Below the pieces are notes generated by a model. The model saw only the letters and a program-made list of their open reading frames with translations. It was not told where the DNA came from and did not search any database. Of a DNA stretch of 7,005 nucleotides, positions 1-7,005 are shown one piece after another. Position numbers and translations under genes: made by a program. Numbering within the stretch: the stretch's first letter is position 1; every line of letters begins with the position of its first letter. This DNA comes from Desulfuromonas sp. SDB (GTDB lineage: Bacteria > SDB-A): positions 1 to 7,005 of the forward strand of contig LKUE01000182.1 in assembly GCA_001412365.1 (NCBI GenBank), read 5' to 3'.

Positions 1-569
1 AAAAGAGATTTTTCTTTTTTAAGATTATTCATCTCTTCCTTGAATTTATTTTGTGGCGCTTCAATATCATCACCGAAAACAGTATTCCTTATTATCTCTG
101 GTAAGCTGTATCCTGCAATATGATCGCTTGTTTCTTGTGGTTCTTCATAATTTCCGATAACCACAACTGAAGAATCTGGATTTTTTAAGCTAAATTCAGT
201 CAATAAAACTGGTATGAAACGAACTTCATCCCAAGGCCATGTAATAAGATGTGCACCTTTCGGTCTTTGCAGGACCCATTCATTATATGCCTCTTCTATT
301 TTATTCAGATTTACATCCCAGTAGAGTGGAATCCTTGAATTAATTCTCGAAAATGAAAGTTTTGCCAATTTGCGGGCATATTCATGTGTTTTGATGAATT
401 TTGATCTCCCCGAAAAATCCAAGTAAGGATAAAATTCACACCCACATCCAGAACAGCCAACCATTCCATCATTTTTTACGGTCAGATAAACGAGATCAGA
501 ATATGATCCCTTATGTGGCTCGTGGCATTGGGGGCAAGTTATACATGAATGAAAATATCTCCTTGTCAT
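1..569 (-). CDS. Unknown zinc-ribbon protein, fourth gene of the DISARM operon (3' end outside the window)
   Basis: I do not recognise this gene. The frame opens with ATG at 569-567, overlapping the drmC stop by 4 bp (ATGA), and stays open for 189 codons to the window edge, so the C-terminus is missing. An AGGTG Shine-Dalgarno lies 5 nt before the ATG. Near the N-terminus are C9, C12 and C15 (CITCPQC), then C39, C42 and C44 (CSGCGC), which look like one four-Cys zinc ribbon. Around residues 106-141 a hydrophobic strand, a WPWDEVRF loop, a helix and a second strand ending VVVIGNY resemble in layout the start of a P-loop helicase fold, but no GK[ST] Walker A is present. That resemblance is inference. 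The visible end is Lys/Glu-rich. No DNA methyltransferase or nuclease motif is seen. It could be a DrmE-like or new DISARM subunit; its coupling to drmC makes a role in the same system likely. Confidence 0.8.
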   Translation of the reverse strand, partial: MTRRYFHSCITCPQCHEPHKGSYSDLVYLTVKNDGMVGCSGCGCEFYPYLDFSGRSKFIKTHEYARKLAKLSFSRINSRIPLYWDVNLNKIEEAYNEWVLQRPKGAHLITWPWDEVRFIPVLLTEFSLKNPDSSVVVIGNYEEPQETSDHIAGYSLPEIIRNTVFGDDIEAPQNKFKEEMNNLKKEKSL

Positions 570-1033
570 TCACCCACCTTCCTGACGAGTGAGAGTACTT
601 TACTTGCAATTGCGGGATCTTCAACAAGAAAACCAAGTTCGTAATTGTTGGCCAGAGCATTGTATGTAAGATTCGCAGAACCGACAAGCACTCTCCGACC
701 ATCTGCCACTATTATCTTGGCATGCAAAACCCGGTTTTTCACAGAGTTAACTTCAAGGTAGGAGAATTCCTCCTGAAGGCGGAATATATCACGGGTTGCA
801 TCATTCATTGGATTTTTCCCGCCGTTATCATACAGGTAAATTGTAACGGCAACCCCGCGTTCAAGAGCTTCCGTTATCTTATTCACCAATCCCCTGTTCG
901 TAAGGACATAAACGGTCAGAACCAGCTGTTCCCGCGCTTCGTCTATCATTTCGCCAATCACAGATCGGAACGATCTGACACCATATCCGATCCAAGCTTC
1001 ACCAGTCGCAACAGGAATGATATTTGCAGTCAT
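566..1033 (-). CDS. drmC: DrmC, phospholipase D-like protein of DISARM
   Basis: A 155-residue protein of the PLD/nuclease superfamily with one HKD motif near the C-terminus: H104, K106 and D111, followed by the GSANLT signature at 118-123 and an NNYELG segment around 129-134. Residues 20-70 have the usual helix plus strand pattern of the fold (an LVLTVYVLT strand, then a helix and a VAVTIYLYD strand). A single HKD suggests it works as a dimer, as Nuc-type enzymes do. In characterised DISARM systems DrmC is the accessory PLD member and reportedly not strictly required for protection; its substrate is not settled. At 155 aa it seems shorter than the DrmC proteins I recall, though the catalytic half looks intact. 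The start at ATG 1033 is supported by a GAGGT site 7 nt upstream. It lies 5 bp after the drmB stop and overlaps the next gene by 4 bp. A stand-alone PLD nuclease is the alternative, but the drmAB context argues strongly for DrmC. Confidence 0.88.
   Translation of the reverse strand: MTANIIPVATGEAWIGYGVRSFRSVIGEMIDEAREQLVLTVYVLTNRGLVNKITEALERGVAVTIYLYDNGGKNPMNDATRDIFRLQEEFSYLEVNSVKNRVLHAKIIVADGRRVLVGSANLTYNALANNYELGFLVEDPAIASKVLSLVRKVGE
575..579 (-). promoter_or_regulatory. Ribosome binding site for the fourth gene, inside the drmC 3' end
   Basis: AGGTG on the minus strand lies 5 nt upstream of the ATG at 569 and is made of the last codons of drmC. With the ATGA stop/start overlap it supports the chosen start and translational coupling of the two genes. 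Confidence 0.6.
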
Positions 1034-1038
1034 TCCAA

Positions 1039-2838
1039 TTACCTCATCAGGAGATGTCTGTCCAGCCAGAGATTCCTGTGCTCACATGAAGTTTCTGACA
1101 GGAGAAGGCAGCTATAGCAGGCAGCGCCATTAATACTGTCCCTTGATTTTTTGAGATCACTGCACAGGGGATCGTTTGAACATACATCGATAATCCTTTC
1201 CGCATCCTTTACAATCTGCCCAAAAGACTTTACGTTTCCAGTAAGTCCACCCATCCCGCCATCTTCGCCAGGTGAAGTGTTGTAAATAAGAATGCCACCG
1301 TTTTTACCATCACTTGATAGATAAATCCTTTCTCGAAGCGAAGCTGCAGAATATCCAGTGAATCCTGCTAAGGCTCGGATCAAGGCGTGAGAAAGAGTGT
1401 GGAGCCAGATAAATTCAGGTAATACACAAATCTCCGTCCAGTCCGAATTTCCCGCATATCCAGAGAGGCCATATTCCTTCCAACGTGAATATGCATCACG
1501 CGAAGAAAGATCTGGGATTTTCCCACTTGCTGGTGTGATGAAAATCCCCTCTCCGAATCCCTCAAATCCCGGGTACCAGAAATAATTACCGAGGAGCACG
1601 GCCGTCGACAATGATTGAGCTTCTTCGTCACCTCTACCAGACACCATTCTCCGGTAACCTGTCTGGACAGTGATTGTCCGTATTTTTTTGACCGGGAAAA
1701 TCTTCAGTGGTGGAACGATGGAGAAGGATTCTGGTCGGTACTCCTCATAGTTATCCATTATAAAGTTGTCCTTGTGAGTGCCTGCTCCTGAACGAAGCGA
1801 TTCAAATTCCTCATACATCATTCCCAAAAAGGATGTATCCTCGACATTTAGCTGATTATAAAAAGTAAAAAATCCTTCAAAGCCCATAGATTCCATGGAT
1901 GATATTATTGTATCCACAGCATCATTGGACACTTTATCAGAGAGAGTGTCCCTCATCCATTTTATTAAACCCTCCTGACCCATTCCTAAAAGCGTTTCTT
2001 TTGGAAGGTTTATCATTCCATCAAGAAAATTAGAAATCGCGTTCCGCTGTAAAACCCGTGTAAGATTATTGTCATATTTTGGGATAGTCAGAAGGGTTAT
2101 CGTGTCGGCAATGCGGAGGGATGTCGACTGTCGTTGGGTGATTTTCATGTCTTTGTCACAATTACGTGGACGTTTTATTTCGCTGTAATATGGAGAGAAA
2201 TTCCCCTTCGGTTGTTCGTTTTCTGGACGTCTGCCCGTACAGAAAAAATTCATTCTATAGATTTCTTTCATTGTGTTTTTTTCTTTGCAGTCGGGGCACT
2301 GAATGACTATGTCAGCAAGTGAACTCCCCCCGACTTTCCAGTAATAAAACTGGGGTTTGCAGCCTCTGTGCTGATGAACTGCATAATGCCAATCAACTTC
2401 GTCAAGATGTCCGGCTGAACACGCAGCAACAAACCTGACAACGCCAGAATCCTCTTTTGTTTTACAAATTGGGCAAACATTATCGACATAAAGGATCGGC
2501 TCATGTTTTTTTGATTTCCGTCGCCCATAACAAATACTCCAAACTGGAAAAATCTGGGTTGCATAAACACGAAAATTATCTGGCTTTTCAAGTCCCGCAT
2601 TTGAAGGCAGAGCAACAATCCGCACTTTATGATCAGCTTTGGAATTTTTCTGAATATACTTACAGAGGCGAATATCAGGTATCTCAAATTTCTCAAAAAC
2701 GTCTTCACTGAAAAAACGCCCGAGACCGCGGTGCAGACTTGGAATCAGCCTCGGCCCGTTTTTTGTTTCGATAATAGAGCTGGGTCCGTATGTAAAGACA
2801 AACTGTGACCTGCTGATGTGTTGGAAATCCTTTCTCAT
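1039..2838 (-). CDS. drmB: DrmB, DUF1998 zinc-binding partner of the DISARM helicase
   Basis: A 599-residue protein with the architecture of DrmB, the DUF1998 protein that forms the core complex with DrmA on DNA. The N-terminus has the SQF-GPSSII-type start (residues 11-23) common in the family. A first Cys/His-rich region follows: C122 and C125 (CPIC), C140 with H144 in CSAGHLDEVDW, C160, C181 and C184 (CPDC), C200 and C227. The C-terminal DUF1998 module has HTLSHALIRAL (H480, H484), a Gly-rich segment (SPGEDGGMGGL, around 527-537), and a cysteine set C553, C559, C574, C577 and C585 just before the end. Both clusters probably bind zinc; that is inferred from spacing. The start is fixed: an in-frame TGA lies four codons upstream of ATG 2838, and GAGGT sits 6 nt before it. 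The gene follows drmA by 2 bp and precedes drmC by 5 bp. No damage is visible. Fused helicase-DUF1998 proteins exist, but here the two parts are separate genes as in DISARM. Confidence 0.92.
   Translation of the reverse strand: MRKDFQHISRSQFVFTYGPSSIIETKNGPRLIPSLHRGLGRFFSEDVFEKFEIPDIRLCKYIQKNSKADHKVRIVALPSNAGLEKPDNFRVYATQIFPVWSICYGRRKSKKHEPILYVDNVCPICKTKEDSGVVRFVAACSAGHLDEVDWHYAVHQHRGCKPQFYYWKVGGSSLADIVIQCPDCKEKNTMKEIYRMNFFCTGRRPENEQPKGNFSPYYSEIKRPRNCDKDMKITQRQSTSLRIADTITLLTIPKYDNNLTRVLQRNAISNFLDGMINLPKETLLGMGQEGLIKWMRDTLSDKVSNDAVDTIISSMESMGFEGFFTFYNQLNVEDTSFLGMMYEEFESLRSGAGTHKDNFIMDNYEEYRPESFSIVPPLKIFPVKKIRTITVQTGYRRMVSGRGDEEAQSLSTAVLLGNYFWYPGFEGFGEGIFITPASGKIPDLSSRDAYSRWKEYGLSGYAGNSDWTEICVLPEFIWLHTLSHALIRALAGFTGYSAASLRERIYLSSDGKNGGILIYNTSPGEDGGMGGLTGNVKSFGQIVKDAERIIDVCSNDPLCSDLKKSRDSINGAACYSCLLLSETSCEHRNLWLDRHLLMR
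1041..1045 (-). promoter_or_regulatory. Ribosome binding site for drmC, overlapping the drmB stop codon
   Basis: GAGGT on the minus strand is 7 nt upstream of the drmC ATG; its last T is the first base of the drmB TAA stop. The drmC frame stays open upstream of the ATG, so this site is the main argument for starting at 1033. Confidence 0.65.
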
Positions 2839-2840
2839 GA

Positions 2841-5800
2841 TTAAACCTCAAAACCTGTCGTTTCTTCGACATCCCTCAACGATTGTGGGGCGTTCCTGAA
2901 TACTGTCACAACTCCCTCTCTGCGCTCATGAGGAGGATCTCCCAGTACAACATGGTTTTCAGCCTTGGTATATTGTGAATATTCGTTGAATTTCAAAGGG
3001 ACTTGTTTCCCAATTTCTGAGGATTTTGCTACCCAGAGATCAAACTGTGATTTCATGAAATCGGACACGTGCTTCGGGAGGCGACCACGACCTTCGAGGC
3101 AAGACCTCAAGAACTCATTGAAATCTTGTTTGGCCTGCGTATTTTGAACTAAATGTCCATCATTTGGAGCCCAGCTGTTCATCGCATCAACCATGTTTCT
3201 GAGGAATGCAACCATGGCAGGTCCTGCTGCACGTTCAAGGCAACCCTCTGAAAATGGGGCGACAGATGCAGGCTCGACCATGAGATTGATTCTGTTATGA
3301 TAACCAGCAAACAGCTCATAGTGACTTAGATCCCGCGGTCTGCCCGCCTTATAAAAGACAGTTACAAGTGCTCCATGCTCTCTTCCTACACGGCCGGTTG
3401 CCTGGATATACTGAGAGGTGGTCTTCGGTTGACCGTTTACAATCATGAGTGAGAGATGAGGGATGTCAACACCTGTTCCAAACATCGAAGTTGTGAAAAT
3501 GGCATCGGGGTTGTCAACCGGGTCCCTATTTCCTCCCTGTTCAAGATCTTCAAGGATTTGCGGAATATCTGTAGAGTCAACTCTGCTAGAGAGTTCGATG
3601 ACCTTTTCTGCGTCAAGTGTCCTTGGTGAGCCTTCTGCAATCTGGCTGACTCTTTCGACAATATCCTCCCTGTAAAGGGAACGGTTACCACCCAATTCCC
3701 GGATGGAGTTGAAATAACCTACCAAAGTCCAAAAATTCGTTATATATTCATTATCCTGATTATTTTGACCTGTCTGAAGGTGTCGAGACCAGATTCTAAT
3801 GAGTGGTGTAAGTGCAGCCATTCCTGGGGCATAAACACCTAAATATACACGTCCTGGCCTTTTTTCGTCCCAAACAACATCCAATTTAGGATATCTCACA
3901 AAGAGACTGTCCCTATATGTAAGCCCATTTGGGGGGAAGAGAAATGTTTCACGACGAAATAGCTGTTTCACCTGTGTTTCCGCTTTATTAACGGTTGCGG
4001 AGGAAGCCACGTATTTTGGCCTTCCACCTGCATGCTTGATCAGTCCGTCAACTACTGATTCATATAGGCCAAACATACTCCCAAGTGGTCCTTCCATCAG
4101 ATGCAGTTCATCCTGAACGATAAGATCCGGCGGGAGGAATGGCTGTATTTCTATATTATATTCCGAATTAAGAGCCCCCTGTATAGTTTCCGTTGGAAGA
4201 AATTCCTTTTCATTTCCACGTAAATATCCATAGAGACGGTTGTATCTCTTCACGGCCCCAAACATTGAGCCTGCACGCGGTTCGAATGCGAGCCGCGCAA
4301 TCTTATCGGCAGTACTGACGATAATTGTGGGGCAACGGTGGTAAATCTGTTCATCCGTCGTGTATGCAGGCAAGGGCATTCTGTTACCTTTGGAGAAGGG
4401 GCCATGAAAAATGCGGAAATATGTACCATTTGTTCCTGTCGGCATTTTATTAGGAAACGGTGTCGCTTCCTTCCATTCCCTGATACTATTTAAATCACAT
4501 TCGGGATTATTACAGAAAATGTCAAAATCCGGATATTTATTCGTTCTCCTTGAAGGTTCTGGAGGAACAGGGAAATAGCCCGGACGGGAAGGTCTGAATG
4601 ACGCGATCACAAATTCTCCCCATTCCTCAAGCTGATGTACGAACTCATCAAACTGCTTATCCTGCAGTTTTGAGTTTGATTTTGTATTTATCTTAAGATT
4701 GAGATAATTCTCGGGGAGATCGTCAGCAACTATCTCCACTGATGAGACAAAATCGGGCAAATTGAAACCGCTAATCTTTTCCTTAACCGCGAATGAATCG
4801 TGTTTGGTACTAATTATCACATGAATAGTATTTTTCCCTTCAGAGAGTCCTGCTCGGGGAATTGATAACCATGACCCACACACGGGGCATTTGACAATTT
4901 GTGCCGGTTCGCCTTTAACCGTTTCTGAAAGTAATGCGTTGATTGCACCATATTCACCCCTGAGATGATTTGGAGAGACACCCCCACCAACCCACATACC
5001 TGTTGAAAATCGTATGGTTCCATATAGCCAGTCATCATCCACGGGACAGCCTTCTGGCCGCCAGCCGTGCAATCCTTCTTTTTCAAAGACACGAAGATAC
5101 TCCGCGGCCATTGTCATTAATAGAGTCCGTCTAAACTGCTGAACGGTAAGCAAGCGCAGAGTATAACGTGTAATGACTGACACACCTGCACCACACCTGT
5201 CATAGTGATCTCCTCTGATCCCTGTCGTTGCTTCCATCCTGCGAAGAGAAATGACAAAGGCCATCATCGCAAGATATGCCTCGGTTTTTCCACCGCCGGT
5301 TGGAACCCAGAGGAGATCCATTGTGTCACGATAGTCTGAATCACGGTTATATAGAGATTCAAGGCTGGCAAGGAAAAATGCAAGCTGAAAGGGTCGCCAA
5401 AGAAAATCTAATTCGGTATCTACAGCTTTTTTATGATTTTTCCATAAATTTTGAAGCATGATGACTCTGTTCGCAAAACAGAAAGCAATCCGTGCTTTTT
5501 CAGACCTCAAAACACAATTTAAACCTATTTCTAAGCGGTTCAAGGTCTGTTTCTGTTTTTTCAGAATTTTTCGGCCTTCGGGTAAATCTTCATGAACACC
5601 GCTGTTGAGTTTGAATTCCTGTTCATTTATCCAAGCTCTGTAATTTATTATAAGAGGGGAAAGGGATTTTCGGATCTCGTCCTCATTCCATAATTCTGAC
5701 AAATTCCGTGCGGAGAAATCGGGCGAAGATTCTGTTTCAAGAGCATTCCACTCAAACTCGGGTGCAGGGGCAGGATGGATTGGATTGAATTCTGAACGGA

Positions 5801-6638
5801 GATCGCAGGCTAAAAATTTCCTAGATTCATCTGAATATTCGCATTCAGGCCATATAATGTGCGGATTAAACCGTTCCTGGTATTCAATATCTTTCCAGAC
5901 AGCAGAACACATATGTCCCCTTACGAGAACGGGACAGTCTTTGTAAATATATTCTGCTTCACTCAGAATTTTTTGTTCGGGTGCAATGAGCGCACCTCCA
6001 TCTTCAAGGATTATACGTATTGAAGGCTGAAACAGGGATTTTTGTGTTATTGTATCTCCCCAGCAGTTTTCAGTCTTCAAATCATTGATAAGACTAACAA
6101 TAATATGCCGGGAAGTTGTGTTAACAGCGATTACACGGAGATTTAAGAGTACTTTCCCATCTTCTTGCTCATAGATAGGAATTTCAGAATTTTTCAGGTT
6201 TGAAAAAGGAATATTCAGGGTATTAAGAAAAGGTATTCGTTTCCATTTCTGATTTTCCTTGTCTTTTAAATTCTCAGTCGATGGATTATCTTCAATAACA
6301 AGCATATACCGTGCCCATGAGAGACAGACAGACAGTCCTGGTTCCCGTCCCTCCAAGATGAAAGAAATTCCGAATGATTTCGGTTTCATCTGTGGATCAA
6401 GCTCACTCGGTATTGATAAAAGTTGATCAGATCCGCGTTCACCGTCATCATATGGCAGATCATCATTTTCAGACCTGATTTCCTCTGAATCTGGTGTAAG
6501 AATCATCTTTTTACAGGATTTGGGAATTATAACACCAGTAACATATTCTGAATAGGGATTCGAGGTAAGAATTTCATTTGGACCAAATCTGGGTCCACGA
6601 ATTTCTCTGATGAGTTCGGTTATGTATTCCTCTCGCAT
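2841..6638 (-). CDS. drmA: DrmA, superfamily 2 helicase/ATPase of DISARM
   Basis: A 1265-residue SF2 helicase, the motor of the DISARM DrmA-DrmB complex that engages foreign DNA in the cytoplasm. An N-terminal region of about 440 residues has no motif I can name. The helicase core follows: Walker A PTGGGKT at 446-452 (K451); a RYTLRLLTVQQF block at 491-502 typical of this helicase group; STADKIA at 775-781; the Walker B box DELH at 843-846; motif III SAT at 880-882; motif V with GTGVDIP ending at P1060; and motif VI QATGRVGR at 1079-1086 with both arginines. Between motifs I and II lies a long insertion with two Cys pairs, C584/C587 (CPVC) and C709/C714 (CNNPEC), probably one split zinc site. 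All catalytic residues are present, so the enzyme should be active. The start is firm: ATG 6638 is the first ATG after an in-frame TAA at 6662-6660, and GGAG lies 8 nt upstream. It is the first gene of the operon in the window, 133 bp from an IS256-type transposase gene. Druantia-type helicases are related, but the size and separate drmB and drmC favour DrmA. Confidence 0.93.
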   Translation of the reverse strand: MREEYITELIREIRGPRFGPNEILTSNPYSEYVTGVIIPKSCKKMILTPDSEEIRSENDDLPYDDGERGSDQLLSIPSELDPQMKPKSFGISFILEGREPGLSVCLSWARYMLVIEDNPSTENLKDKENQKWKRIPFLNTLNIPFSNLKNSEIPIYEQEDGKVLLNLRVIAVNTTSRHIIVSLINDLKTENCWGDTITQKSLFQPSIRIILEDGGALIAPEQKILSEAEYIYKDCPVLVRGHMCSAVWKDIEYQERFNPHIIWPECEYSDESRKFLACDLRSEFNPIHPAPAPEFEWNALETESSPDFSARNLSELWNEDEIRKSLSPLIINYRAWINEQEFKLNSGVHEDLPEGRKILKKQKQTLNRLEIGLNCVLRSEKARIAFCFANRVIMLQNLWKNHKKAVDTELDFLWRPFQLAFFLASLESLYNRDSDYRDTMDLLWVPTGGGKTEAYLAMMAFVISLRRMEATTGIRGDHYDRCGAGVSVITRYTLRLLTVQQFRRTLLMTMAAEYLRVFEKEGLHGWRPEGCPVDDDWLYGTIRFSTGMWVGGGVSPNHLRGEYGAINALLSETVKGEPAQIVKCPVCGSWLSIPRAGLSEGKNTIHVIISTKHDSFAVKEKISGFNLPDFVSSVEIVADDLPENYLNLKINTKSNSKLQDKQFDEFVHQLEEWGEFVIASFRPSRPGYFPVPPEPSRRTNKYPDFDIFCNNPECDLNSIREWKEATPFPNKMPTGTNGTYFRIFHGPFSKGNRMPLPAYTTDEQIYHRCPTIIVSTADKIARLAFEPRAGSMFGAVKRYNRLYGYLRGNEKEFLPTETIQGALNSEYNIEIQPFLPPDLIVQDELHLMEGPLGSMFGLYESVVDGLIKHAGGRPKYVASSATVNKAETQVKQLFRRETFLFPPNGLTYRDSLFVRYPKLDVVWDEKRPGRVYLGVYAPGMAALTPLIRIWSRHLQTGQNNQDNEYITNFWTLVGYFNSIRELGGNRSLYREDIVERVSQIAEGSPRTLDAEKVIELSSRVDSTDIPQILEDLEQGGNRDPVDNPDAIFTTSMFGTGVDIPHLSLMIVNGQPKTTSQYIQATGRVGREHGALVTVFYKAGRPRDLSHYELFAGYHNRINLMVEPASVAPFSEGCLERAAGPAMVAFLRNMVDAMNSWAPNDGHLVQNTQAKQDFNEFLRSCLEGRGRLPKHVSDFMKSQFDLWVAKSSEIGKQVPLKFNEYSQYTKAENHVVLGDPPHERREGVVTVFRNAPQSLRDVEETTGFEV
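2845..2849 (-). promoter_or_regulatory. Ribosome binding site for drmB, inside the last codons of drmA
   Basis: GAGGT on the minus strand is 6 nt upstream of the drmB ATG and is formed by the Glu-Val codons that end drmA. An in-frame TGA at 2850-2848 overlaps it, so translation of drmB cannot begin further upstream. Confidence 0.65.
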
Positions 6639-6646
6639 GCAGGATT

Positions 6647-6650
6647 CTCC
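6647..6650 (-). promoter_or_regulatory. Ribosome binding site for drmA
   Basis: GGAG within AAGGAGAA on the minus strand lies 8 nt before the ATG at 6638. With the in-frame TAA at 6662-6660 it settles the drmA start. Confidence 0.75.
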
Positions 6651-6704
6651 TTCAGAATTTTATTGTTTCAAGGATGAATTTTGTCAAATGTAAATCAAGA
6701 TCCG

Positions 6705-6718
6705 ACAATGTCTATTGT
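6705..6718. repeat. Small perfect palindrome upstream of drmA, possible operator
   Basis: ACAAT and ATTGT arms of 5 bp flank a 4-base GTCT spacer, about 67 bp upstream of the drmA ATG in the only intergenic gap of the operon. The position would suit a dimeric repressor site, but arms this short in A/T-rich DNA can occur by chance. No regulator gene is visible in the window. Confidence 0.25.
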
Positions 6719-6732
6719 ATTCATTATCTCCA

Positions 6733-6742
6733 ATTTATTAAA
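6733..6742 (-). promoter_or_regulatory. Weak TATA-like element upstream of the DISARM operon
   Basis: TTTAATAAAT on the minus strand lies about 95 bp upstream of the drmA ATG and resembles an archaeal TATA box. It would place the transcript start near 6710, with a leader of roughly 70 nt. I see no convincing BRE beside it, and other A/T-rich stretches (for example near 6690-6697) could serve. If the host is a bacterium this call does not hold. Confidence 0.22.
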
Positions 6743-6746
6743 GATA

Positions 6747-7005
6747 GGTTGCATTATAGTAGGAAGTGTACTCATTCTGCTGTAAATTCTGCCCTCGTAT
6801 CCTGACATACCATCACCTCTGATCCAGATAAATACTTCCGCCCTGTGATCCACTCCTCATTGATATCCATCAATATGGCTCCGGCGAGACGGAGGAGTGA
6901 ATTGTCATTTGGAAACGCTCCTATTGGCCGGGATCGTCGTTTCAGTTCCTTATTGATCCGCTCGAGGAGATTCGTGGTCCGGATTCTCCTCCAGTGCTCC
7001 TGCGG
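6747..7005 (-). mobile_element. Right end of an IS256-family insertion sequence (partial)
   Basis: The transposase 3' end and the short non-coding tail after its stop are consistent with the right end of an IS256-family element; members of this family usually end a few dozen bases past the transposase stop. Read on the plus strand, the terminus may start near the GGTTGCATTATAG stretch at 6747, but the left end is outside the window, so neither the inverted repeat nor a target duplication can be confirmed and the boundary is approximate. The element is immediately upstream of the DISARM operon. Confidence 0.5.
6772..7005 (-). CDS. IS256-family (Mutator-type) transposase, C-terminal 77 residues only
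   Basis: Reading from the right edge, the frame is open from the first base to a TGA at 6774-6772. It begins PQEHWRRIRTTNLLERIN and continues with a KRR stretch and IGAFPN, then LLRLAGAILMDINEEW and GRKYL. These are the standard C-terminal blocks of IS256-family DDE transposases, which move DNA by cut-and-paste or copy-out mechanisms. The Glu of LLER (fragment residue 15) is followed seven residues later by a Lys, matching the E-x6-K/R signature of the third catalytic acidic residue. The first two catalytic Asp residues would be in the missing part. No frameshift or stop is seen in the visible portion, so the gene may be intact outside the window. Confidence 0.88.
   Translation of the reverse strand, partial: PQEHWRRIRTTNLLERINKELKRRSRPIGAFPNDNSLLRLAGAILMDINEEWITGRKYLSGSEVMVCQDTRAEFTAE

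Follow-up and report, generated by a model that had tools for sequence, protein, structure and literature searches.

The DNA analysed here, hereafter the window, comprises contig C182 in full (7005 bases), one of the 433 contigs of a 3.14-Mb assembly. Its genes and sequence features, in the direction of transcription, are the following:

2841–6638, minus strand: drmA, encoding a helicase of 1265 amino acids of the long DrmA-L type (PADLOC/NCBIfam)
1039–2838, minus strand: drmB, encoding a protein of 599 amino acids with MZB/DUF1998 (PADLOC/NCBIfam)
566–1033, minus strand: drmC, encoding a short single-domain PLD nuclease of 155 amino acids with an HAK...GSAN active-site motif (PADLOC/NCBIfam searches)
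577–583, minus strand: AGGAAGG, a candidate Shine-Dalgarno sequence for X (−14 to −8), read from the sequence within the end of drmC
566–569, minus strand: ATGA, the four bases shared by the drmC stop and the X start
3–569, minus strand: X, a zinc-ribbon DrmE-like gene, of which the N-terminal part (189 codons) is present, starting at ATG and open to the contig end
444–536, minus strand: zinc-ribbon segment of X, with C12/C15 (CPQCHEPH) and C39/C42, invariant in ten of ten sequences
231–242, minus strand: TWPW motif of X (residues 110–113), at the Walker A place of a helicase-like protein, invariant in the family

The contig carries the DISARM core, namely the DrmA helicase, the DrmB DUF1998 protein and the DrmC PLD nuclease, in one operon. 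PADLOC scored DrmA, DrmB and DrmC at 1650.8, 724.8 and 180.7 bits, respectively; the NCBIfam DrmAL and DrmB models were above cut-off, the DrmA and DrmB matches were full-length, and DrmC matched PDLC02614 of PADLOC across its entire length. The operon neighbourhood is cut by both contig ends, and a search of the window's own fragmented assembly found no DrmMII-like gene. At the opposite end of the contig from X, upstream of drmA, lies a partial gene for a Mutator-family (IS256-like) transposase, of which the C-terminal part is present (6775–7005, minus strand; PF00872).

The preliminary description had drmC running into a different gene through an ATGA overlap, and this arrangement was borne out by the shared bases at 566–569 and the upstream AGGAAGG. 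The four-base overlap recurs in eight of nine relatives of X, the ninth having TAATG. From these sequence features, we infer that X is translationally coupled to drmC and that the two proteins are probably produced in step. Since the window is a whole contig, the truncation of X is the end of the assembly. The remaining part of the gene was sought and was absent from the rest of its own assembly. X is nevertheless a genuine coding sequence, because a full-length archaeal homologue has its start at the identical residue and is 40% identical.

Neither the 189-residue fragment nor a 992-residue homologue had a significant match in Pfam, NCBIfam, PADLOC, PHROGs or PDB sequences, and no relatives of X were found in the plasmid and viral collections. 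The gene had been described as unrecognised, and it is so for Pfam, NCBIfam and PADLOC, whether the fragment or a full-length relative is used. A weak paired CXXCH cytochrome match to X was below cut-off and was accounted for by the zinc ribbon. The curated DrmE model, NF038316, gave zero matches in the X-carrying genomes searched (G000 included); the same model does detect DrmE in other members of the set of 392 genomes described below. Neither NF038316 nor PADLOC recognised the DrmE expected of class 2, and a PADLOC type II call requires DrmE (PMC9252829).

Relatives of X were sampled by a peptide-pattern scan of GTDB, in one archaeal phylum and in the window's own phylum of four genomes. 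The scan, which covered 84,980 GTDB species genomes and detects close relatives only, returned one relative, in an Archaeoglobales MAG. In this locus (L003), the gene order is drmMII, a MutY-like HhH-GPD glycosylase gene, drmA, drmB, drmC and, directly behind drmC, an X gene of 992 codons. Among 392 genomes of the same phylum, five encode a full-length X and three further ones contain fragments; 185 genomes from the order of one carrier yielded four more full-length X genes. The resulting nine full-length proteins, all archaeal, are 992–1015 residues long, and each gene is positioned directly behind drmC (9/9). A drmMII-type cytosine methylase gene also lies beside the operon with drmA and drmB at every one of these loci. 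Thus, recurrence next to drmABC, which had been put forward as support for a new subunit, was observed within Archaea.

Homologues located mostly away from drmABC would have spoken against such a subunit, and the off-operon copies were all fragments. Two of them appear to be decayed copies (L023 in G062, 11575–12708; L024 in G198, 10596–11166), and the fragment in G287 is at a contig edge. In G320, which has drmABC with the same DrmA type, no X was found within 2 kb behind drmC. Pairwise identities among X proteins followed those of DrmC, DrmB and DrmA with Spearman coefficients of 0.93, 0.90 and 0.85, respectively, and X evolves faster, with a mean identity of 43% as compared with 60–64% for DrmA, DrmB and DrmC. 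The strict position and the identities that track those of DrmABC show that X, co-inherited with drmABC, belongs stably to operons of this type.

Further features were noted in the X operons. Six of them have an HhH-GPD gene near the cytosine methylase gene (L003, L019, L020, L022, L138 and L140), and three have a Vsr-like gene (L021, L137 and L139), one named by PADLOC and two assigned by similarity. HhH-GPD and Vsr-like proteins are the repair enzymes to be expected alongside a 5-methylcytosine methylase. DrmC was always short in X operons (155–159 residues), as compared with about 229–333 residues in the DrmE and Y operons that were read (family Y is described below). An N-terminal four-helix bundle is present in most DISARM DrmC proteins (PMC12458937); judged by length, the DrmC proteins of X operons are without it. 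As a speculation, X may compensate for the missing bundle.

The window itself stands apart from its assembly. The bulk of the assembly is that of a Gram-negative bacterium, with KDO transferase, Lnt and MutL present, and archaeal S27e is absent from it. The GC content of the window is 43%, against 38 ± 2.7% for the other contigs of at least 3 kb; its tetranucleotide composition value (0.291) is near the extreme of the range for contigs of at least 5 kb (0.10–0.31), and all relatives of its proteins come from archaea. Horizontal acquisition or mis-binning may account for this, and we therefore claim no bacterial X.

The alignment of ten X sequences redefined the N-terminal cysteine cluster. Among the residues assigned to it in the preliminary description, C12, C15, C39 and C42 were invariant in all ten sequences, and C9 and C44 were not conserved. 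As only these four are invariant, the ribbon is CxxCHEPH...CxxC, with two CxxC knuckles that are predicted to bind metal. The ribbon is followed by the invariant TWPW and then (V/L)(R/K)F, flanked by a hydrophobic strand on one side and a helix on the other. Neither GKS/T at motif I nor a DEAD/DEAH-type box was found in the ten X sequences, so that the Walker A and DExx elements of SF2 helicases are missing from their expected places in all of them. The P-loop-like fold lacking Walker A that had been suggested for this region is a reasonable reading of the invariant TWPW...(R/K)F, if one without confident structural support: AlphaFold2, applied to two sequences only, gave unusable models (pLDDT 33.5 and 36.8). 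The order of elements in these models of very low confidence would fit a pair of degenerate RecA-like lobes followed by a helical C-terminus.

To compare X with DrmE beyond the reach of the curated models, we used profile–profile alignment. The X profile matched a profile built from 13 DrmE proteins of archaea with a score of 69.1, Prob 92.8 and an E-value of 4e-7, the last being that of a single comparison; reversed alignments scored 27 and 21, and twenty column shuffles gave Prob values of at most 0.3%. With the nine-sequence X profile the score was 55.6, against at most 23.6 for thirty shuffles, and with a larger DrmE set it was 66.6, expanded sets giving Prob 77–91. Nine of ten jackknifes scored 48–75 and one scored 36, with reversed controls at 18–28, and most of the nine shared one diagonal that places X residues of about 346–945 on DrmE residues of about 171–760. 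Overall, most runs gave Prob 77–95 and scores of 48–75, with nulls of 28 or lower, and the profiles of DrmA, DrmB, DrmD, HelD, SMC and Tn3 transposase scored 35 or lower against X. The MAC alignment was collinear from X 34–1000 to DrmE 1–802. Most of the signal comes from the second half; of the single terminal segments, X 700–992 gave the strongest local match (score 41.2); single DrmE sequences were below significance against the X profile. These comparisons suggest that the homology of X and DrmE, albeit remote, is reproducible and extends beyond the C-terminal motif, which is its strongest part. The W...P...D pattern at the C-terminus could belong to a DNA-binding module of wider distribution. 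Among the outcomes named as counting against novelty was a full-length, strong match to drmE; such a match exists as a remote one, and the curated DrmE models give no score.

In the course of these searches, two unannotated genes of about 800 codons that NCBIfam misses were seen at the drmE position ahead of drmA, one on a Haliscomenobacter plasmid (L041, 5589–7967), the product of which is clearly DrmE-like (Prob 96), and the other on a Lactiplantibacillus plasmid (L030, 5487–7892), the product of which is weakly so. The Lactiplantibacillus gene in the drmE slot (801 residues) was considered as an aid to the DrmE comparison and proved too divergent.

Among the DrmA-bearing loci in the 392 genomes, DrmE or a fragment of it lies beside the DISARM genes in eleven, X occurs in five and a further family, Y, in six, and no operon examined had two of the three together. 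Family Y, of 1039–1111 residues and likewise unrecognised, has its genes immediately after drmC in six DISARM loci of archaea (L113, L123, L124, L125, L126 and L127; genomes G260, G345, G289, G084, G159 and G236). Y matched the DrmE profile with Prob 91.7, and a DrmE-like protein links to Y with Prob 90.9. In G091, a canonical drmE gene itself lies directly behind drmC. The mutual exclusion of X, DrmE and Y in the operons examined, the DrmE-likeness of Y and the position of drmE in G091 together make X a most likely occupant of the DrmE slot. A separate DISARM locus, L118 (G070), contains a pair of DrmE-like genes (4312–6777 and 9430–11871) with an unassigned ORF of 810 codons between them.

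Seen from the window by itself, with its 189 codons of X on a MAG contig that has a transposase at the other end, X might be ordinary cargo or a neighbouring defence gene that merely happens to lie downstream of DISARM. We regard this as very improbable, because the complete relatives occupy the place directly behind drmC without exception, mostly with the four-base overlap, their distances follow those of DrmC, and the copies off drmABC are fragments (G062 and G198, with that of G287 at a contig edge). It is just as improbable that X has SF2 helicase or ATPase activity, its Walker A having been overlooked. The low-confidence models do predict a strand-loop-helix-strand at the place of motif I, and the alignment contains possible motif II/III-like stretches (PDLxVxxNxDDfI and VLMFST), but motif I is without GKS/T in all ten sequences, with the invariant TWPW in its place, and there is no DEAD/DEAH box.

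A more serious alternative, although we consider it unlikely, is that X is a separate DISARM subunit that is not homologous to DrmE along its length, has only a C-terminal DNA-binding module in common with it, and replaces DrmE functionally, its ribbon sensing foreign DNA. The silence of the curated DrmE models agrees with this, as do the confinement of the top single-segment signal to X 700–992, the lack of an N-terminal zinc ribbon in DrmE and the different usual position of drmE. On the other hand, the local alignment of X and DrmE runs over 320–500 columns on a constant diagonal and starts at about X 346 in most jackknifes, which is too long for one small module. The remote homology thus supports a body and C-terminal domain common to X and DrmE. 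The preliminary description had proposed a new kind of DISARM component, and this proposal is not supported: the DrmE alignment is collinear and well above the nulls, and the protein belongs to drmMII-drmABC operons, in which it was never seen with DrmE.

Taken together, these results indicate that the X ORF in the window probably represents the initial 189 codons for a DrmE-type subunit that is highly divergent, about 1,000 residues long and part of a class 2-like DISARM operon of the order drmA-drmB-drmC-X. We read X as a DrmE-type subunit that evolves fast, to which a zinc ribbon has been added at the N-terminus and in which the helicase-like body is degenerate and Walker-less. Such a protein would be a non-ATPase pseudo-helicase scaffold, the two degenerate RecA-like lobes and C-terminal helical domain of which might dock on the DrmAB helicase complex, on DNA or on both, and the zinc ribbon might contact DNA or DrmB. 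DrmAB is activated by unmethylated 5′-overhang DNA (PMC9142583); X could help to link DrmC, the short nuclease, to the activation of DrmAB by foreign DNA that is unmethylated. A more far-reaching version, which we consider rather unlikely, is that X, as a zinc-ribbon pseudo-helicase coupled to a minimal DrmC, is a DISARM subunit so far undescribed that replaces DrmE, and that X and Y mark out a pair of DISARM subclasses, present in archaea and perhaps in bacteria, that current detection models miss.

DrmE is among the least understood DISARM proteins. If X and Y are of the DrmE type, current models greatly underestimate how often the DrmE slot is occupied in archaea, and many DISARM loci taken as incomplete would be complete. 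The comparison suggests a role for DrmE-type proteins as helicase-like scaffolds without Walker motifs, and the pairing of the zinc-ribbon form with a minimal DrmC offers a testable idea of DrmE function.

Among the known DISARM proteins, DrmD, the SNF2-like helicase of class 1, resembles X as a large accessory helicase-like protein, whereas its profile has no similarity to that of X (score 19). DrmA and DrmB, a YprA-family helicase split in two, share the operon with X, and zinc-binding modules are common in them (PMC12458937); their profile matches to X are weak, that of DrmA being only at the zinc ribbon (score 35), and the active helicase is DrmA. Family Y shares with X the slot behind drmC, a similar size and the DrmE-likeness by profile, but lacks a CxxC ribbon in those parts of the N-terminus that were read and has no detectable direct similarity to X. 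DrmE of class 2 (NF038316, DrmE_fam; NF038323) differs from X in lacking the N-terminal zinc ribbon, in its size (about 720–860 residues, against 992–1015), in its detection by the curated models and in its usual position before drmA rather than after drmC, where X is paired with a short DrmC of about 157 residues. It is nonetheless the closest in kind: DrmE, too, occurs in operons of drmMII and drmABC, in which X was never found alongside it, lacks an obvious Walker A in the single canonical sequence inspected by eye, and is remotely and collinearly homologous to X in the body and the C-terminus.
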